Source of the DNA: Chloroflexota bacterium
GTDB taxonomy: Bacteria; Chloroflexota; Dehalococcoidia; Bin125
Reading direction: 5' to 3'
DNA length: 50,502 bases
Assembly (NCBI GenBank): GCA_028875225.1
Contig: JAPPFB010000015.1
Location: 1 to 50,502 of the forward strand
Shown here: positions 24,312-33,244 of the stretch, one piece after another
Position numbering within the stretch: the stretch's first letter is position 1
Layout: each line of letters opens with the position of its first letter
The notes under the pieces: generated by a model
Seen by the model: only the letters and a program-made list of their open reading frames with translations
Database searches by the model: none
Told to the model about the DNA's origin: nothing
Position numbers and translations under genes: made by a program

Positions 24312-25418
24312 ATGCAGATCACCGACATCACCTGTACGCCGCTGACGATCGGCAAGAGCCTGTTGAGAATCGTGACCAATGCCAGACTCGAAGGCTGGGC
24401 CGAGGTTCCGGGCGGCAACTACAACCTCAGCTCAAAGACGGCCGTGTTCGAGGCCTATCTCGAAACCGACATCAAGCGAGCCCTGCTCGGCGAAGACCCG
24501 CTGCTGATCGACCGGCACTGGGAGACGCTGGCACTGGGCCGCGGCGAGCGCATGTACAAGTTGCCCGGCTGGGTCGTGGGCGTGGTCGACGTGGCGCTCT
24601 GGGATCTGATGGGTAAGGAGACGGGCCTGCCGGTGCACACGCTGATGGGCGGAGCGCGCCGCACCGACATCCCGCTCTACTGGAGCACGGGATCGGGGTG
24701 GCGAATGCAGCCCGAGGAGATGTTGGAGTTGGTCCGCGAGGGCAAGGAGCAGGGGTACGAATCGTTCAAGATTCGCATGGACTGGCGCGGCTGGCGCCAG
24801 GACATCGACCCGGAGAAGGACTTCCAGATCTTCAAGCTGGTGCGCGAGTACCTCGACGAGGGCCAGTACCTCGGCTTCGACGCCAACAACGGCTACTCGG
24901 TCTCGACCGCGATCCAGCAAGGCCGCCGGTTCGAGGAACTCGGCATCGACCACTTCGAGGAGCCAATTCCGCACTACGACCTGCCCGGCCTGAAGCAGAT
25001 CTCCGATGCGCTGGATGTCGCCGTTTCGGCCGGTGAACAGGACGCATTCCGCTGGTGGTTCGAACACCTCGTGCTGCTTGGAGACGTGGACATCCTCCAG
25101 CCTGACATCCTCAACGCCGGCGGCCCCAGCGAGGTCAAGCGCATTTTCGAGATGGCGACGGTGTTGAACAAGCCGGTGATGCCGCACAGTCCCCAGGCCG
25201 GAATCAACTCAATGGCCTCGCTGCACGTCTACGCGACGGTGCAGAACGCAACGCGGCCGCACGAATACTCGGAGGAGTTTTCCGGTCCAATCGACGATGT
25301 GGCCGAACTGTATGGAGAGTCGGTCATTCCCAGCAACGGCCGCATCCAGCTCAGCGACCGGCCGGGCTACGGGATCGAGTTGAATGAGTCGGAAGTGGAG
25401 CGGTTGACGGTCCGCTAG
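24312..25418 (+). CDS. Enolase superfamily (mandelate racemase/muconate lactonizing type) enzyme
   Basis: A 368-residue enolase-superfamily protein with an N-terminal capping domain and a C-terminal barrel. Barrel residues: Lys153-Ile-Arg155 (KxR in place of the common KxK), metal ligands Asp190 (GFDANNGYS), Glu216/217 (FEEPIPHYD) and Glu242 (SAGEQD), then Asp265 (LQPDILNAGG) and the base His292 (MPHSPQAGI). This is the mandelate-racemase-like subgroup with an Asp-His dyad, typical of sugar-acid dehydratases. The exact sugar acid cannot be told. The stop overlaps the convergent PIN toxin gene by 4 bp. Expansion of this superfamily is reported for SAR202 bacteria (general knowledge). Confidence 0.88.
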   Translation: MQITDITCTPLTIGKSLLRIVTNARLEGWAEVPGGNYNLSSKTAVFEAYLETDIKRALLGEDPLLIDRHWETLALGRGERMYKLPGWVVGVVDVALWDLMGKETGLPVHTLMGGARRTDIPLYWSTGSGWRMQPEEMLELVREGKEQGYESFKIRMDWRGWRQDIDPEKDFQIFKLVREYLDEGQYLGFDANNGYSVSTAIQQGRRFEELGIDHFEEPIPHYDLPGLKQISDALDVAVSAGEQDAFRWWFEHLVLLGDVDILQPDILNAGGPSEVKRIFEMATVLNKPVMPHSPQAGINSMASLHVYATVQNATRPHEYSEEFSGPIDDVAELYGESVIPSNGRIQLSDRPGYGIELNESEVERLTVR

Positions 25419-25840
25419 CTCGTCTCGTACTCCCATGGATTGATGATCTCGACGCCAAGTGCCCCAAAGTCGGTCACGTCGCGGGTCACCACCGTCATCT
25501 CGTTCGCTATCGCCGTGCCGGCGATCAACGCGTCCGCAACATCGACCGGTCGTCCGTTGCGAAGAGCCTCTGCTCGCGAAACTGCAGCGAACTCGGCCGC
25601 CAAACTATCCAGTGGAACGATGCGATTCTCGAATGCCGAAAGAAACTGGTAGTGATCTTCATACATGCGTTCCCGGCGACGTCCATCCGGGAGCTGTTGC
25701 AGTCCGAACTCCAGCTCATGCAGTACGACTGCCGAAAGCCACTGGTCGGCACGGAGATCCAGGAAGGCAGCTACCTGAGGCTCGGGACTGTCTCTGGTCA
25801 GTTCTGAGACGACATTGGTGTCAAGCAGATAGCCACTCAC
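25415..25840 (-). CDS. PIN-domain toxin (VapC/FitB-like)
   Basis: A 141-residue PIN-domain ribonuclease of the FitB-like type: YLLDTNVVSEL with the first Asp, then VVLHELEFGLQQLP, ADALIAGTAIANEMTVVTRD and FGALGVEIINPWE. The acidic residues needed for Mg-dependent RNA cleavage are present. The start overlaps the antitoxin by 4 bp (25837-25840), a typical toxin-antitoxin coupling. Confidence 0.9.
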   Translation of the reverse strand: MSGYLLDTNVVSELTRDSPEPQVAAFLDLRADQWLSAVVLHELEFGLQQLPDGRRRERMYEDHYQFLSAFENRIVPLDSLAAEFAAVSRAEALRNGRPVDVADALIAGTAIANEMTVVTRDVTDFGALGVEIINPWEYETS

Positions 25841-26199
25841 TTGCTGCCTGGGTCATCGTCGTCAATTTGCGATAATTCTGGTTCAGCCCCGTCTTCTTCA
25901 CGAATCGAAGGGTCCGAACCTCGCTTTGGGACGTTGTCATAGATGCCGCGTGGCATCTTCGTAAGCAGATACTGACTGATGGACATCCCGGCCGATTGCT
26001 CCTCCTGAGGTGCACCGCCCACTTGCGCTTCTGGAGGAGGAACGCGGTTGAGCCAGGCATCTTCAGGAACAATGATGTAGCGCTTGCGACTGCCGATTCG
26101 CTGCGGCCCTTCGATTTCGGCTAGTCGCAGAATCTCGGGCAGCTTCTCCTTGGCTTCGGCAATCGTCCAGGCGGTGCCTTCGGCTTCCCTGATGCTCAT
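25837..26199 (-). CDS. Phd/YefM-like antitoxin with extended C-terminus
   Basis: A 120-residue antitoxin. The Phd/YefM fold shows in WTIAEAKEKLPEILRLAE and GPQRIGSRKRYIIVPEDAW. It is longer than usual (~80-90): a ~70-residue tail includes GMSISQYLLTKMPRGIYDN and ends in a very acidic region (IREEDGAEPELSQIDDDD), which may neutralise the toxin. GGAGG precedes ATG 26199. A perfect palindrome (26214-26240) lies 15 bp upstream. Confidence 0.8.
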   Translation of the reverse strand: MSIREAEGTAWTIAEAKEKLPEILRLAEIEGPQRIGSRKRYIIVPEDAWLNRVPPPEAQVGGAPQEEQSAGMSISQYLLTKMPRGIYDNVPKRGSDPSIREEDGAEPELSQIDDDDPGSK

Positions 26200-26286: not shown

Positions 26287-27930
26287 CTAGTCGGCCAGGA
26301 CCGGTTCCTTGGCCTCGCTCTGGATGAAGCCGGGGTAGTCGGTGCTGGCGATCTCTTCGCAGCGCTCTCGGTAGACGCCCACGCCGCCGGCGTAAGGCAT
26401 AAAGACCCTCGGCTTGCCGGGGATGTTGGCGCCCAGGTACCACGAGTCGGCCAGCATGTACATCGTCTGTTCGGCGACGTCGTTGACGTGCTGGACCCAT
26501 TCCTCTTCGGCCTCAGGTGTGACATCAACCGTGGCGACGTCGCGCTCGCTGAGGTACTCGATGAAGTCCGAGACCCACTCGACGTGCTGCTCAATTGAGA
26601 CCGGCATGTTGCTCAGCACCGAGGGTGAGCCCGGTCCGGTGATCATGAACAGGTTGGGGAACTCGGTCGTGGCGATCCCGAGATAGGTCTTGGGACCCTC
26701 ACTCCACTTGTCCTTCAATGCCACCCCGTTGCGGCCGGTGAGGTCGATGTTGAAGAAGGTGCCGGTCATCGCGTCGTAGCCGGTGGCGAAGACGATGACG
26801 TCGAACTCGTACTCCTGGCCGTCGGCGGTGCGCAGACCGGTTGGCGTGATCTCCTCGATCGGGAAGTGGCGAATGTCGACCAGATCGACGTTGTCGCGGT
26901 TGTAGGTGTCGAAGTAGTTGGTGTCGATCAACGCGCGCTTGGAGCCGAACGGGTGGTCGCGGGGCAGCAACTTCTCTGCGGTGTCGGGATCCTTGACGAT
27001 TTCGCGAATCTTGCTGCGGATGAACTCCGAGGCGGTGTCGTTGGCGCGTCGGTCGACGGCGATGTCGCCGTAGGACTGGAAGAGGAAACGGAAGCCGCCG
27101 AGCTCCCAGAGCTCCTCGAACTTGGCGCGGCGCTCCTCGTCGCTTACTTCAAGGGCGGATTCTTCGGAGAATTCGACGGGGAAGCCGGCGAACGAGACCT
27201 TGGACTGCTGCATGATCTCGGTGTAGTTGGCCTTGACCTCCTTGAGGAACTCCTGGTCCACGTTCTCGTGCCGCGCCGGAATCGTGTACTGCGGGGTGCG
27301 CTGGAACACGGTCAGGTGCTCGGACTCGCGGGCGATCACCGGGATCGACTGCACGCCGCTGGAGCCCGTGCCGATCACGGCCACGCGCTTGCCGGCGAAG
27401 TCGACGCCCTCATGCGGCCAGGCTCCGGTGTGGTGCCAGTCGCCCTGGAACGAGTCGAGACCCGGGATCTGCGGAATCTGTCCCGTCGAGATGCAGCCGA
27501 TTGCCGTGACCACATACTTGGCGGTGACGCGGTCGCCCTGGTCGGTCTCGACCTCCCAGAGGTTGGTGTCGTCGTTGAAGTGAGCCGCGGTAACGCTGGT
27601 GTTGAACTGGATCCCGCTGCGCAGATCGAAGCGGTCGGCGACGTGGTTGAGGTACTCGAGGATCTCGGGCTGCTCCGGGTACTTGCCGCTCCAGTTCCAC
27701 TCCTGCAGCAGGTCGTCGTCGAAGGAGAAGCAGTAGATGTAGCTCTCCGAGTCGCAGCGCGCGCCGGGATAGCGGTTCCAGAACCAGGTGCCGCCCACAC
27801 CGCTGCCGCGTTCGTAGACCTGCGTGGTCATGCCCAGGTCATCGCGCAGCTTCTTGAGCATGTACATGCCGGCGAAACCGGCTCCGATCACCACTGCGTC
27901 GACGTGCTTGGTTGCCGTGGAGTCTGCCAT
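26287..27930 (-). CDS. Flavin-containing Baeyer-Villiger-type monooxygenase
   Basis: A 547-residue class B flavoprotein monooxygenase. The FAD-binding motif is VVIGAGFAGM (Gly16, 18, 21). The BVMO fingerprint FxGxxxHxxxWP is present as F161, G163, H167, W171, and the NADPH motif is VIGTGSSG (187-192). GVGGTWFWNRYPGARCD is typical of cyclohexanone/phenylacetone/steroid BVMOs. It should insert oxygen next to a ketone to give an ester or lactone, in the cytoplasm. I chose ATG 27930 (GGAGAG upstream); a start at 27975 is less likely. The ketone substrate is unknown, but steroid or terpenoid ketones are plausible. An esterase gene lies 89 bp upstream. Confidence 0.92.
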   Translation of the reverse strand: MADSTATKHVDAVVIGAGFAGMYMLKKLRDDLGMTTQVYERGSGVGGTWFWNRYPGARCDSESYIYCFSFDDDLLQEWNWSGKYPEQPEILEYLNHVADRFDLRSGIQFNTSVTAAHFNDDTNLWEVETDQGDRVTAKYVVTAIGCISTGQIPQIPGLDSFQGDWHHTGAWPHEGVDFAGKRVAVIGTGSSGVQSIPVIARESEHLTVFQRTPQYTIPARHENVDQEFLKEVKANYTEIMQQSKVSFAGFPVEFSEESALEVSDEERRAKFEELWELGGFRFLFQSYGDIAVDRRANDTASEFIRSKIREIVKDPDTAEKLLPRDHPFGSKRALIDTNYFDTYNRDNVDLVDIRHFPIEEITPTGLRTADGQEYEFDVIVFATGYDAMTGTFFNIDLTGRNGVALKDKWSEGPKTYLGIATTEFPNLFMITGPGSPSVLSNMPVSIEQHVEWVSDFIEYLSERDVATVDVTPEAEEEWVQHVNDVAEQTMYMLADSWYLGANIPGKPRVFMPYAGGVGVYRERCEEIASTDYPGFIQSEAKEPVLAD

Positions 27931-28019
27931 CTTCGTACTTCTCTCCGGCTCGGACCAGGTCACGATCCGAGCCACTGATTTCCTTCGCTGAGGCGAAACG
28001 ACCGATCAGCAAAAGTCTA

Positions 28020-28973
28020 CTACCTGGCGGCCGCCGGCTGCTGGACGACCACCGCGCGAATGGCCTTGACGACATGCTGGAATCCGCGTTCGCTGCCGGG
28101 CAGCATGAGCAGGGTGAAGAACCCGTGCATCTGTCCCGGGTGCCGTTGGAAGTTGACCGGCACGCCGGCTTCCTCCAGCCGTCGGGCGTATGCTTCGCCC
28201 TCGTCGCGCAGGACATCGTGCTCCGCGGTGAGGACGACCGCCGGGGGCAACCCTGAGAGATCGTCGGCCCGCAGAGGAGAAGCATCCGGTTCGCTGCGGC
28301 GCTCGGCGTCGGGCACGTAGTGGTCCCAGAACCAGACCATCGCTTCCTTGGTCAGCAGGAGCTCGTTTTCGGGATCGTCGTACGAGGGCCGGTCGAAGTC
28401 GGCGTCGGTGACCGGGTAGATCAGCACCTGCAGCGCAATCTCGGGGCCGCCTCGGTCGCGTGAACGGCGAGCAACGACGGCGGACAAGTTGCCGCCCGCG
28501 CTGTCGCCGGCCACGAACAGAGGCACCTGGCGGCCAGCAATGTCCTCGACGTGTTCGGCGACCCACTCCAACGCGGCGTAGCAGTCGTCCGCTGCGGTGG
28601 GATAGCGGTGCTCGGGAGCCAACCGGTACTCAACGTTGACGACGGCGCAAGAGGTGCGCTCAGCCAGTTTTCTGGCCATCGTGTCGGTCTCGTCGATCGA
28701 GCCGATCACCCATCCGCCACCGTGGTAGTAGACGATGATGCCGGGTGGATGGTCGTTTGGAACCAGGACGCGCAGGCTGAACGAACCGTCGTCCTGCTCA
28801 ATCGTGTGCTCCTCAACGCGAGCCATGGGCGGCGCCGGGCCGGCCATCTCGGCGATTGCGCCACCGAACCCCCGGGCTTCCTCGGGCGTCATTTCGTGCA
28901 GCGGTTTGGCATCGGGGTCAGCGCCTTCAGCCATCGTCTGGATAAGCATGGTCGTCGCGGGGTCGAGTGCCAT
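28020..28973 (-). CDS. Alpha/beta hydrolase of the hormone-sensitive-lipase type
   Basis: A 317-residue esterase of the HSL family. HGGG at 84-87 forms the oxyanion hole, GDSAGG has nucleophile Ser158, the Asp is in LTAEHDVLRDEG and the His in HPGQMHGF. YRLAPEHRYPTAADDCYAAL is a signature of the group. I chose ATG 28973 with AGGAG 6 nt upstream rather than 29036. It could hydrolyse esters or lactones made by the neighbouring BVMO on the same strand, a pairing often seen in ketone catabolism; this is inference. Confidence 0.9.
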   Translation of the reverse strand: MALDPATTMLIQTMAEGADPDAKPLHEMTPEEARGFGGAIAEMAGPAPPMARVEEHTIEQDDGSFSLRVLVPNDHPPGIIVYYHGGGWVIGSIDETDTMARKLAERTSCAVVNVEYRLAPEHRYPTAADDCYAALEWVAEHVEDIAGRQVPLFVAGDSAGGNLSAVVARRSRDRGGPEIALQVLIYPVTDADFDRPSYDDPENELLLTKEAMVWFWDHYVPDAERRSEPDASPLRADDLSGLPPAVVLTAEHDVLRDEGEAYARRLEEAGVPVNFQRHPGQMHGFFTLLMLPGSERGFQHVVKAIRAVVVQQPAAAR

Positions 28974-29135
28974 TCGCTGCTCCTGAGTTTCGCTCGCCAG
29001 GAATTCCTGTTTGGTTGGAGATCGGTAACGCTGCAAGGGTAATGGGAGACCGTGATTTCAAGAAGAACCCGATAGAGGTTCGAGGTCGGAGAGCGTGCGC
29101 TACTGGGCTATGGCGATGGCGGTTGCGCGTGAGCC

Positions 29136-29749: not shown

Positions 29750-30079
29750 CTACCTCTGCAACAGGCGCTGCACGAGCAGCGCCCGGATGTCGCGCCGACC
29801 GTCGGCGATCAGTTGGACAATGACTGTTGCGTCCGTCACCGTGTAGACAATCCGGTATGGGCCGGCGAGCACCTGGCGATGGGAGCGAGCGCCCTGGTCG
29901 AGCACCTCGTTGACATAGGAGCCGCGTTCCGGAAACTCGGCGAGGCTGTCCGCCCGTTGCCGAACCGACGCCACGACAGATCCCGCCCGCGCCGGAGAAT
30001 CTGCTAAGTCGATGTACTCGCCGATCCCTTCAAGATCGGCTTCCGCCTCGTCCGTGAAACGGACGCGGTAGGTCGTCAC
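29750..30079 (-). CDS. RelE/ParE family toxin
   Basis: A 109-residue toxin of the RelE/ParE superfamily. YRVRFTDEAEADLEGIGEYI is the N-terminal strand-helix, and RQVLAGPYRIVYTV and IVQLIADGRRDI are the central strands of the fold. Which target it hits (ribosome-bound mRNA or gyrase) is not evident. The start overlaps the antitoxin by 4 bp. Confidence 0.88.
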   Translation of the reverse strand: MTTYRVRFTDEAEADLEGIGEYIDLADSPARAGSVVASVRQRADSLAEFPERGSYVNEVLDQGARSHRQVLAGPYRIVYTVTDATVIVQLIADGRRDIRALLVQRLLQR

Positions 30080-30339
30080 GTCGCGGGCCAGCGCTTCTGC
30101 AGTCGCTCGAACACCTCGTCGGCTGGCTTGGTCCTGCCCTGGCGAACGGACTCTTCGCCAATCGCCAGAATGGCGAGTAACGCGGCTTTCTCGGTGATTT
30201 GGAACTGCTCGTAGCTCATCACGACAGCCACCGGCTTGCCGTCCCGGGTCAGGACGTGCGAATCTTCGTCGTCGGCGAGGCAGCGCACAATCTCATCTGC
30301 GTTTTCGATGAACTCGCTGAGTGGGTACTTCCGTGCCAT
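30076..30339 (-). CDS. Phd/YefM family antitoxin
   Basis: An 87-residue antitoxin: ARKYPLSEFIENADEIVRCL, then DSHVLTRDGKPVAVVMSYEQF, the usual Phd/YefM core. The C-terminal helix (EESVRQGRTKPADEVFERLQ) should bind the RelE-like toxin. ATG 30339 has GGGAG close upstream; the frame extends to 30387. An inverted repeat GACCCA/TGGGTC (30359-30385) lies 20 bp upstream. Confidence 0.87.
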   Translation of the reverse strand: MARKYPLSEFIENADEIVRCLADDEDSHVLTRDGKPVAVVMSYEQFQITEKAALLAILAIGEESVRQGRTKPADEVFERLQKRWPAT

Positions 30340-30358
30340 TGTGAGTCTCCCTCTGCTC

Positions 30359-30385
30359 GACCCAATGGAATCAACATAGTGGGTC
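30359..30385 (-). promoter_or_regulatory. Inverted repeat upstream of the Phd-RelE pair (possible operator)
   Basis: GACCCA (30359-30364) and TGGGTC (30380-30385) are 6-bp inverted arms with 15-nt spacing, centred about 33 bp upstream of the antitoxin start. The minus strand also reads TTGACC here, a possible -35 box, but I see no matching -10. Confidence 0.3.
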
Positions 30386-30392
30386 AAGGAAC

Positions 30393-32105
30393 TCAGGCAT
30401 GCAGAGCTTCACCGCGATGCAGTCGCGCGGCCGTTTCGTAGGTCTGGCCCATGGAGCGGACCGTCGGCGCGTGGGCGGTGAGGAATCGGCTCGCGCCGAT
30501 CAGCACGTCGTCGGCTTCCGGCCGGTCGCCAAAGCGGTCGACCAGGCGGAGAGCGGCGTCGTAGATCTGGAACGAGTGGAAGCCGGCGTCCTCGCGCAGC
30601 AGCGCGGTGCCCAGCGTCCGCACGACCTCGTCTCGCTGACCACCGGCGAGCAGGTCGGCCACCGACTGTCCGGTCTCGTCGACCTGTTGCTGCCGGTCGA
30701 AGTGATCGAGCAGATCGTCGGTCGAGGTGGAGCCGCCGTTCGGTTCCGGTCGTGGCTGGCGCGGCATGTTGAGGAAGCGCTCGAGATAGACCGAGGCCGC
30801 GCCGTCGAGGATGCCGCGGGCCAGCTCGCGGGAGGGCGCCCTCTGCATCGCCCGGTCGACGGCGTTGGTGTAGGTGAACGTGTGGTGGACGGTGTTCCAG
30901 TCGCCGAACTCGTTGGAGATGTGGAAGTGCAGCGGCCTGCGGGCCGCCGCGTAGGCGACGGTGGCGCTGAGCTCCGTCAGCGGCGCGCCGGCGCGGGCGG
31001 CGTCGACGATCCTGCGCAGCGAACGGTCGGGCGTGTCGTCGAGGATCGATTCCGCGACGGGTCGGTGTTCGTCCCAGGATTCGTTGCGTTCTCCGCCAAT
31101 GGCGAGCGCCTCGTCCAGCGCCTCGCCGGCCTCGTCGAGCAGTTGCGGGAGGTCGACCGGATGCTGCCAGGCGGAGGTTTCCTCCATCCGCTGGGCGCCG
31201 GTGATGGTCGGAATGATCGAGCTGAGCACGTCGGGCGCAGTGTCCCAGCCGACCACGTCGAGCAGCTCGCAGGCCTTGTTGGCGAAGTCGAGCGTGTGTC
31301 CGACGTCCATGAAGGTGTGATCGGTGGAAGCGGCGAAGAGCAGGTCCGCCAGCTGCGACTCGTTCAGGCCGGCGACGGCGGCGGTCCGCAAACAGCGCTC
31401 AGCCGCGTCGCGTGATCGCACCTCGGCGAATCTGCGGAACCAGGTACGGAACTGATCGGGCCGATCTTCATCGGTGTCGAGCGCGGCGATGTCGAAGTCG
31501 GGCGGCTGCCCTTCGACGCTGCGTGCGACGTGGACGACGCCGTGATAGAGCGCCCGCGGCCGGTCTTCCGCCGCGAGATGCGGCAGCACGTTGGCCATCG
31601 CCGTGAGGATTGAGAGTCCGCTGGACCAACCGGCGGCGCGGTTCTTGACGCCGAAGCGGGCCGCTTCGGCGAGAACGAGATCTTCGCGTCCGGCTTCGCA
31701 CAGTCCAATCACCGATTTGGCGATGACGAGACGGAGGTTCTGCTCAAGACCCTCGGAGAGTTTGCGCGTGCAGTGCGCGACGACTTCTTCCTCCTGCGGT
31801 TCCGGATCGAGCCAGATGTCGCCGTCGCGGATCTCGGCGCGGAAGGCGGCGACGTCGTCGGCGAAGAGGTCGAAGGCGCAGCCGCCGGAGAGATCGAACT
31901 TGGCGTGATGCCAGTGACAGGTCAGGATGCCGTCGGCCACGGTCCCCTGGCTGAGCGGGAAACCCATGTGCGGGCAGCGATTGTCAACGGCGAAGACCTG
32001 CTCGCGGTGCCAGAAGACGGCCGCGGTGCGTTGACCGGTGGAGACGACGCGCACGCCGTCGCGCTGCAGTTCCTCCAGCGAACAAACTCGTACGGTGGCG
32101 TTCAT
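30393..32105 (-). CDS. Rieske [2Fe-2S] domain fused to a large helical domain of unknown function
   Basis: A 570-residue protein. Residues ~5-100 form a Rieske domain with Cys44/His46 (RCPHMGFPLSQG) and Cys63/His66 (CHWHHAKFDLSGG). The remaining ~450 residues are mainly alpha-helical with an unidentified fold. It includes His-rich stretches HGVVHVAR, STDHTFMDVGHTLDFANKA, RRPLHFHISNEFGDW and NTVHHTFTYTNAVD. Recurrent HxxxxHTxDFxNKA-type and HHTFTYxNAxD-type motifs suggest an internal repeat and possibly a metal site. This is not a standard Rieske oxygenase: the usual C-terminal iron domain is absent. It could be a redox enzyme or electron carrier of new type. No signal peptide. Confidence 0.7.
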   Translation of the reverse strand: MNATVRVCSLEELQRDGVRVVSTGQRTAAVFWHREQVFAVDNRCPHMGFPLSQGTVADGILTCHWHHAKFDLSGGCAFDLFADDVAAFRAEIRDGDIWLDPEPQEEEVVAHCTRKLSEGLEQNLRLVIAKSVIGLCEAGREDLVLAEAARFGVKNRAAGWSSGLSILTAMANVLPHLAAEDRPRALYHGVVHVARSVEGQPPDFDIAALDTDEDRPDQFRTWFRRFAEVRSRDAAERCLRTAAVAGLNESQLADLLFAASTDHTFMDVGHTLDFANKACELLDVVGWDTAPDVLSSIIPTITGAQRMEETSAWQHPVDLPQLLDEAGEALDEALAIGGERNESWDEHRPVAESILDDTPDRSLRRIVDAARAGAPLTELSATVAYAAARRPLHFHISNEFGDWNTVHHTFTYTNAVDRAMQRAPSRELARGILDGAASVYLERFLNMPRQPRPEPNGGSTSTDDLLDHFDRQQQVDETGQSVADLLAGGQRDEVVRTLGTALLREDAGFHSFQIYDAALRLVDRFGDRPEADDVLIGASRFLTAHAPTVRSMGQTYETAARLHRGEALHA

Positions 32106-32209
32106 GGCAGTCCTCCAGTCCTGACTTGAAGGCTATCGATGAGAACACGATGATGCGTGAAGAGAGCGGTGCGATTTCGTCCGAACGGGGATGGTACAGG
32201 AGTCCCAAC

Positions 32210-33244
32210 ATGACCGATGCAGCGACTTCCGGCCGCCCCAGGGGCGTTCACCTGGTGGGCAGCGTGCCGCTCGCCGACAGCGAAGCAGTGTTTCGCGAAG
32301 TCTCGGCGAGCCTTGGCGATCGCCTGAGGCGCGTACCCGACGGCGAGACCGGGATCCGGACGAACTGGATTCAGTGGCAGTTTCCGCTGCTGCTGGAAGT
32401 TCCGGAGTTCGAGTCGGCGGATGAGCCGGCGGGACCGTTCGGAGCCAGGCTGCAACTGCGCCCCGGTGTGATCCAGGATGACATCGGCTTTCCCGAACTC
32501 GGCTACCGCGCGGCGGCGCTCGAGTCGTACGCCGTATTCACCCGACTGAAGCGGGAAGGCGTGATCGGAGAGAACGTCCGCTTCCAGGTCTGCCTGCCGA
32601 CGCCGCTGGCGGTGATTCACGTTCGTTTTGTGCCTCGTGACCAGGAGGCCGTCGAACTGGCCTACGAGCGCCAGCTGCTTGAGGAGTTGGATGGGTTGCT
32701 GGACATCATTCCGGCCGAAGAGCTGGCGATTCAGTGGGACACGGCGGTGGAGTTCGCCATTCTTGAAGGACTGTTGCCTTCGTTCCTGGTCGACGCCGAG
32801 GCAGAGATCGTGGATAGACTGGTTCGGTTGGCCGATCACGTGCCGGCTGGAGTCGAGACCGGTTTCCACCTGTGCTACGGGGACGTCGAGCATCAACACT
32901 TCATCGAACCCGTCGACACGACGAAGCTGGTCGGCGTCGCCAACGGCGTCTGCGCCGGCGTCGACCGATTGGTCGACTGGATCCACATGCCGGTTCCTCG
33001 GGGTCGCAACGACGACGCCTACTTCGCGCCGCTGAAGGGGTTGCAGTTGCAGCCCGAGACCGAGCTGTATCTCGGGCTCGTGCATCTGACCGACGGCGTC
33101 GATGGAACTGAGGCGCGTATCGCCGCCGCGCGGCGGGCGGTTCCCGAGTTTGGCGTGGCGACGGAGTGCGGCTTCGGCCGGCGGCCGGCGGAGACGATTC
33201 CCGCGCTGCTCGACGTGCACGCGATCGTCGCCGATCCCGCCTGA
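32210..33244 (+). CDS. MetE/UROD-like TIM-barrel protein
   Basis: A 344-residue barrel protein related to the catalytic half of cobalamin-independent methionine synthase (MetE) and uroporphyrinogen decarboxylase-like enzymes. GVHLVGSVPLADSEAVFREV starts the barrel. His220-Leu-Cys222 (FHLCYGD) and Cys320 (TECGFGRR) match the zinc-ligand positions of MetE, so methyl or alkyl transfer to or from a thiol is plausible. The N-terminal MetE domain is absent. ATG 32210 has AGGAG 7 nt upstream and is preferred to 32126. It is divergent from the Rieske-fusion gene and followed by an OmdA-like gene. Confidence 0.75.
   Translation: MTDAATSGRPRGVHLVGSVPLADSEAVFREVSASLGDRLRRVPDGETGIRTNWIQWQFPLLLEVPEFESADEPAGPFGARLQLRPGVIQDDIGFPELGYRAAALESYAVFTRLKREGVIGENVRFQVCLPTPLAVIHVRFVPRDQEAVELAYERQLLEELDGLLDIIPAEELAIQWDTAVEFAILEGLLPSFLVDAEAEIVDRLVRLADHVPAGVETGFHLCYGDVEHQHFIEPVDTTKLVGVANGVCAGVDRLVDWIHMPVPRGRNDDAYFAPLKGLQLQPETELYLGLVHLTDGVDGTEARIAAARRAVPEFGVATECGFGRRPAETIPALLDVHAIVADPA

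Follow-up and report, generated by a model that had tools for sequence, protein, structure and literature searches.

A Rieske domain fused to a helical domain without matches in Pfam, NCBIfam, or PHROG

What does a Rieske [2Fe-2S] domain do when the rest of its chain resembles no standard oxygenase? This question is raised by a gene at positions 30393 to 32105 (minus strand) of the window, by which we mean the whole 50,502-nucleotide stretch of Chloroflexota DNA analyzed here. The initial annotation, with exactly these coordinates, had described a Rieske module joined to a His-rich helical region and had proposed a new type of redox enzyme. The open reading frame (ORF) comprises 570 codons with an ATG start and belongs to a 3.2-Mb genome of 29 contigs, whose near relatives are Dehalococcoidia/Chloroflexota MAGs. 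Comparison with 10 close relatives revealed 343, 200, and 2160 substitutions at codon positions 1, 2, and 3, respectively, which indicates strong purifying selection on the protein. Together with the homologues described below, these data identify the ORF as a genuine, conserved, and old gene.

The N terminus carries a Rieske [2Fe-2S] domain of the ferredoxin type (BphF/CarAc-like; residues 4 to 104, positions 31794 to 32096, minus strand). Pfam model PF00355 matched these residues with an E value of 8e-16 (58.2 bits, against a gathering score of 20.3), and it also matched 27 of the 27 family members scanned. In a VIA structure comparison of the full-length predicted model, the Rieske part aligned at a Z score of ~17 with 2de5_D, 1vck, and 3dqy; the proteins matched at this level were CarAc, BphA3/BphF, and the toluene dioxygenase ferredoxin, and the toluene-4-monooxygenase (T4MO) ferredoxin was also among the matches. 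Judging from the motifs CPH and CHWH, the cluster ligands are C44 (31974 to 31976), H46 (31968 to 31970), C63 (31917 to 31919), and H66 (31908 to 31910; all minus strand). These residues are kept in 29/29 alignment rows that span the Rieske part. For residues 1 to 104, the Rieske ferredoxins CarAc, BphF, NdoA, and T4MOC are closest in both sequence and fold. However, these are free proteins of ~105 residues, whereas in the close family the Rieske domain described here occurs only in fused form.

The presence of a Rieske domain and a second domain on one chain recalls the alpha subunits of Rieske oxygenases (RO), such as dicamba monooxygenase, KshA, and NdmA, with which the proposed path from the Rieske cluster to iron would also be held in common. 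The catalytic domain of the RO subunits has an alpha/beta helix-grip fold and a 2-His-1-carboxylate iron site; in contrast, our protein is predicted to be all helical in this part and has no second Pfam domain. RO chains aligned with residues 1 to 105 only in the full-length structure search. Moreover, neither the protein nor the 27 members matched the RO catalytic domain in Pfam at E values up to 10, in keeping with the original remark that no standard oxygenase domain follows the Rieske module. If the protein is active, its similarity to RO alpha subunits would be convergent.

Distribution of the family

Homologues that are 87 to 97% identical occur in the same genus and in one other genus of the same family, many others are ~60 to 70% identical across the class, and homologues with ~38 to 49% identity are found in other Chloroflexota, in Halobacteria, and on plasmids. 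The plasmids are those of archaea and cyanobacteria (Halorussus, Haladaptatus, Nostoc, Aulosira, and Gloeothece) and of other bacteria (Microvirga, Sinorhizobium, Paraburkholderia, Priestia, and Metabacillus); no homologues were detected in viral contigs and phage records. The family is present in five groups: Chloroflexota, Halobacteria, Cyanobacteria, Bacillota, and Pseudomonadota (alpha and beta). In the tree, the Haloarchaea, Bacillota, and Cyanobacteria each formed one fully supported group, and the Chloroflexota did not. Within the close family the helical domain is invariably fused to a Rieske domain, except in matches cut by contig ends. Databases label these proteins merely as "Rieske (2Fe-2S) protein." Our literature search, which covered a minority of subscription journals, found neither a published function for the Rieske-fused family nor a publication linking Rieske to questin oxidase.

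Three Chloroflexota relatives of about 540 to 570 amino acids lack the Rieske domain (L116, 4723 to 6435, plus strand; L117, 4233 to 5945, minus strand; and L076, 2 to 1618, minus strand). They have no Pfam match and are homologous to the helical domain, as indicated by an hhalign E value of 3.5e-11 at an identity of 18 to 21%. These relatives share the helical domain and the four histidines discussed below, but they carry Glu, not Gln, at position 513 and have other neighbours. In two genomes, the Rieske-less gene and a downstream malate synthase G-like ORF overlap at the start of the latter; the third gene is divergent from an aminotransferase. Separately, the Rieske-fused homologue of Halosimplex pelagicum R2 (complete genome) is broken into two ORFs (L066, 6146 to 8407) with one internal TGA, and from its sequence it may be a pseudogene.

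Predicted fold of the helical domain

The helical domain (residues 105 to 570, positions 30396 to 31793, minus strand) gave no match to Pfam, NCBIfam, or PHROG models. Outside the Rieske part, the 27 homologues searched against Pfam produced scattered weak matches at most. No di-iron family was matched, either by the protein in Pfam and NCBIfam or by the 27 members in Pfam. A lone weak match to CMD/AhpD (PF02627), obtained for 1 of the 27 members at an E value of 0.92, was rejected, and CxxC is absent from the helical domain. Searching PDB sequences with a profile of the domain returned chance matches to designed and repeat proteins, which were also rejected.

AlphaFold2 modeled the full chain with a pTM of 0.86 (22-row alignment) and the helical domain alone with a pTM of 0.91 and a pLDDT of 90.3 (24 rows), and the C-terminal part was all helical in these models. 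The fusion of a Rieske domain with a helical region, as initially annotated, was confirmed. The model of the helical domain was compared with 987 PDB chains using VIA-align. The top match was BTG13 (7y3y; Z score of 16.4 over 327 residues, 4.3 Å), followed by AflY (8yxs; Z score of 15.4) and the hydroquinone dioxygenase PaD (8z4r and 8z4q; Z scores of 13.8 and 13.7), scores that should be read with the tool's own warning that helical models without kinship can reach a best Z of ~14. These alignments covered 327 to 333 residues with an rmsd of 4.3 to 4.7, and 8yxs and 8z4q were present in the full-length structure search too. Below the BTG13 family came fragments of MgsA (Z scores of 12 to 13 over 92 to 95 residues), and all remaining matches had Z scores of 6 or less. 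We consider the fold match convincing because three distinct proteins of one family top the list over ~330 residues, after which the scores drop sharply. In a plain Foldseek search with the helical domain alone, the BTG13 family was absent among the matches listed; those matches (channels and transporters, E values of at least 0.03, TM of ~0.1) were rejected as noise. According to the model, the helical domain has the fold of the BTG13/AflY/PaD dioxygenases, fungal non-heme-iron enzymes that cleave rings.

Relationship to PF14027

A search for PF14027, the questin oxidase-like family also known as DUF4243, among 400 Chloroflexota genomes yielded one bona fide member, and further relatives were found on plasmids of Streptomyces, Nonomuraea, and Rhizobium. 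Since a profile built from these seven sequences matched PaD (2.6e-7) and AflY (1.4e-5) in the PDB, the PaD and AflY structures are those of PF14027 relatives. The seven-sequence alignment contains four conserved histidines, in the motifs NHGPM, HGVI, HxVT, and DEH-x-I-K. HxxK is present in this alignment as well as in PaD (EDDGHMCK) and AflY (HDDGHVAK). Bona fide PF14027 genes ("questin oxidase family") occur frequently on Rhizobium plasmids, with 79 records matched; in the Rhizobium copy that we aligned (L144), Ser replaces the HxxK lysine.

At the sequence level, PF14027 matched neither the 570-residue protein nor any of the 27 family members, even at an E value of 10, and hhalign against seven PF14027 members was insignificant (probability of <1%). 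Because this similarity is undetectable, we describe the Rieske-fused family by its fold, as BTG13-like, and refrain from assigning it to PF14027. The initial annotation had considered that the helical part might match a known enzyme family, such as questin oxidase-like proteins with known function. Such a match exists in fold, with BTG13, AflY, and PaD at the top, but not in sequence, and no family member of known function was found. The claim of a new redox enzyme type is therefore partly supported and, given the fold match, narrows to a new fusion, in which a Rieske domain is joined to a fold already known from dioxygenases.

Internal duplication and conserved histidines

Two similar-looking motifs in the helical region, DHTFMDVGHTLDFANKA (residues 262 to 278, positions 31272 to 31322, minus strand) and VHHTFTYTNAVDRA (residues 406 to 419, positions 30849 to 30890, minus strand), had suggested an internal duplication. 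We compared a profile of residues 210 to 309 (repeat 1; positions 31179 to 31478, minus strand), which contain H270, with a profile of residues 345 to 432 (repeat 2; positions 30810 to 31073, minus strand), which contain H408. hhalign reported a probability of 88%, an E value of 3e-6, and a score of 36, compared to a highest score of 19.0 in 100 column-shuffled controls. The duplication is genuine and beyond chance. As the alignment pairs G269-H270 with H407-H408, the original impression of two similar motifs was correct. Residues 460 to 570 were evaluated as a third repeat and rejected; their register fits (H510 against H270), and their score of 14.8 lies within the shuffled range.

Repeat 1 also resembles the C-terminal fragment of MgsA (2r9g, 3bge, and 3pvs; Z scores of 12 to 13, 92 to 95 residues, rmsd of ~2 to 2.5 Å), and 2 of the 27 homologues weakly matched Pfam MgsA_C (best E value, 0.024). 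Repeat 1 and the MgsA/RarA C-terminal fragment may represent a shared helical module; the likeness concerns the local fold of this repeat alone and brings no evidence of shared function. MgsA_C was rejected as the identity of the helical domain, as the match is local, involves one repeat, and leaves the whole domain unexplained.

Conservation was counted over 30 homologue rows from five phyla, plus the 3 Rieske-less Chloroflexota relatives. Exactly 4 of the 17 histidines in the helical domain are conserved in 29 or more of the 30 homologues, and the same four are the only well-kept histidines in 3/3 Rieske-less relatives. They are H270 (31296 to 31298; 30/30), H408 (30882 to 30884; 29/30), H510 in REDAGFHSFQ (30576 to 30578; 30/30), and H545 (30471 to 30473; 30/30; all minus strand). 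In the predicted secondary structure, each is located in or adjoins a helix end. H263 and H407, which are part of the two motifs, are kept less well (25/30 and 27/30), and the distant relatives have other residues at these positions. The suggestion of conserved histidines that could bind a metal holds; H270, H408, and H510 are proposed ligands, and H545 is a proposed fourth.

By local motif and order, H270 would be equivalent to the PF14027 histidine of HGVI/HPVI, H408 to that of VHxVTAP, and H510 to that of EDDGHxxK. For H270 and H510, this register is consistent with the offsets measured from the ends of the structural alignments. The assignment of H545 to the HxxK histidine was dropped, since the end offsets (7 versus 45 to 50 residues) and the correspondence of REDAGFH with EDDGH favour H510; no PF14027 counterpart of H545 was seen. 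In the register given by motif and order, Q513 (30567 to 30569, minus strand) would occupy the position of the HxxK lysine; it is Gln in 30/30 Rieske-fused rows and Glu in 3/3 Rieske-less relatives. The HxxK lysine of BTG13 is carboxylated, and we take the lysine set against Q513 to be this residue. W160 (31626 to 31628, minus strand), which is Trp in 30/30 rows, would by order only stand in the place of the first PF14027 histidine (NHGPM).

Set beside BTG13, AflY/HypA, PaD, and GedK, the protein shares a fold over ~330 residues (Z scores of 13.7 to 16.4, predicted model), several conserved helix-end histidines that appear to follow the same order, and an acidic stretch ahead of the histidine (REDAGFH versus EDDGH). 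It differs from the PF14027 dioxygenases in its N-terminal Rieske domain, in the lack of significant sequence similarity, in the probable replacement of the HxxK lysine by Gln and of the first His by Trp, and in the additional, invariant C-terminal H545.

Proposed function and alternatives

We propose, with a probability of roughly one half, that the protein is a self-wired, Rieske-fed, and probably mononuclear non-heme-iron oxygenase. The Rieske motif, the fold match, the repeat, the obligate fusion, and the four conserved histidines are computed results, from which we infer an iron, a single site, an electron path, the use of O2, and a substrate. An unlinked NAD(P)H ferredoxin reductase would deliver electrons to the ferredoxin-type Rieske [2Fe-2S] domain, which lies on the same chain as the BTG13-fold helical domain. 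The cluster would in turn reduce one iron in a pocket built from the repeat helix ends, with H270, H408, H510, and probably H545 as ligands. O2 would be activated on an aromatic or quinone-like substrate, and in this genus the product could pass to the neighbouring alpha/beta hydrolase. Because the position of the HxxK lysine appears to be taken by Gln513, the iron site would be altered with respect to that of the PF14027 dioxygenases.

Fungal PF14027 enzymes cleave hydroquinone rings that have been pre-reduced by a separate reductase (GedF/GedK) (PMC9890505). Since their substrate is an already reduced hydroquinone and an electron donor is unneeded (PMC9890505), this chemistry does not account for the role of a Rieske domain. 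A built-in Rieske domain could replace the separate pre-reduction, or it could permit a different, reductive O2 chemistry. The latter leads to a more tentative reading, in which the family represents a separate class of Rieske oxygenases, evolved independently of the first, with its cluster wired on one chain to a His-rich iron site of the BTG13 type within an all-helical domain. Such a class would perform reductive O2 chemistry, in contrast to its PF14027-like cousins, which act on pre-reduced hydroquinones, and would span Haloarchaea, Chloroflexota, Cyanobacteria, Bacillota, and Proteobacteria. If this is true, a Rieske domain has been combined with an unrelated fold of dioxygenase type, and the same electron wiring has arisen twice; to our knowledge, the single-chain Rieske oxygenases have one catalytic fold. 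A protein from five phyla that carries a generic database label would also acquire a name and a testable function, and the four conserved histidines make the oxygenase idea directly testable by mutation.

Alternatively, the helical domain could hold a di-metal site (di-iron or similar) with one metal per repeat, reduced by the Rieske cluster in the manner of toluene-4-monooxygenase. The duplication is genuine, di-iron hydroxylases are known to be served by Rieske ferredoxins, with the T4MO ferredoxin among our Rieske matches, and conserved acids accompany the four histidines: D273, E309, D402, and E505 are kept in 30/30 rows, and D262 and D506 are kept in 27 to 28 of 30. However, most of these acids, unlike the four histidines, are not retained in the Rieske-less relatives (D262 is), the sequence shows no pair of ExxH di-iron motifs, and the predicted fold matches BTG13-type dioxygenases, which are described as mononuclear, rather than a di-iron four-helix bundle. 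The arrangement of the four histidines, two from the repeats and two C-terminal, suggests that they fit a single site as well as or better than a di-metal one. We therefore regard a di-metal site as unlikely.

It also seems improbable that the helical domain has a scaffolding, sensory, or regulatory role and that the Rieske domain simply carries electrons to, or acts as a redox switch for, another protein. Stable gene partners are absent across phyla, an AsnC-type regulator precedes the gene on three haloarchaeal plasmids, and the MgsA C-terminal fragment resembled by repeat 1 is non-catalytic, all of which would suit such a role. Nevertheless, the four histidines are retained near-completely over five phyla, a pattern expected where catalysis or metal binding takes place, and catalytic proteins are better matches to the whole domain than scaffolds are.

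A non-oxygenase function, in which the cluster exchanges electrons with a (hydro)quinone in the helical pocket and the protein acts as a quinone reductase or oxidase, appears quite unlikely. In its favour, contact between Rieske domains and quinols is familiar from bc1 complexes. PF14027 relatives, too, use hydroquinones (PaD, going by title; GedK, PMC9890505). On the other hand, the four conserved histidines point to a metal site in addition to the cluster, and Rieske domains of the ferredoxin type, to which this one belongs, usually feed oxygenases. Finally, a strict PF14027 questin oxidase that gained a Rieske domain and kept the same hydroquinone ring cleavage would agree with the fold match to BTG13/AflY/PaD and with three histidines alignable by order and local motif, but it is very unlikely given that 0/27 members reach PF14027 at an E value of 10, that the hhalign probability is below 1%, and that Gln occupies the inferred position of the HxxK lysine.

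Electron donor and gene neighbourhood

As a candidate electron donor for the proposed Rieske-fed oxygenase, the genome encodes one ferredoxin-reductase-type protein with Reductase_C (2.8e-9), a domain of Rieske-ferredoxin reductases; no FAD_binding_6 reductase was found in the genome. In the genus, the minus-strand order is the Rieske-fused gene, an alpha/beta hydrolase (Abhydrolase_3; 28020 to 29036), and an FMO/Baeyer-Villiger-type monooxygenase (26287 to 27975), the latter two being of a catabolic type and possible partners in this genus only. The hydrolase gene was on the same strand, 19 to 3170 bp downstream, in 14/14 genus loci where it was found, and the FMO/Baeyer-Villiger-type gene followed it in 12 genus loci. 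Outside the genus, neighbours differ and no conserved operon was detected. Hydrolases near other members span Abhydrolase_3, Abhydrolase_1, and DLH; an alpha/beta hydrolase was therefore rejected as a general partner, and none can be named. The lack of a conserved neighbourhood beyond the genus weighs against the oxygenase proposal.

On the other side of the Rieske-fused gene is a divergent ORF of 372 amino acids (32126 to 33244, plus strand), for which no Pfam match was found at 1e-5 and which is conserved in the genus (64 to 88%). The AsnC-family regulator of the three haloarchaeal plasmids is encoded just upstream on the same strand (L138, 7320 to 7916; L148, 5771 to 6361; and L152, 5699 to 6289). 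Between the Rieske-fused gene and the hydrolase gene in the window there is a probable toxin-antitoxin pair (RelE/antitoxin type, identified by eye; 29750 to 30387), and a second probable pair (PIN/antitoxin type, also by eye) is located at 25415 to 26199. The spacer between the Rieske-fused gene and the hydrolase gene varies among relatives over the range given above, as if cassettes come and go.
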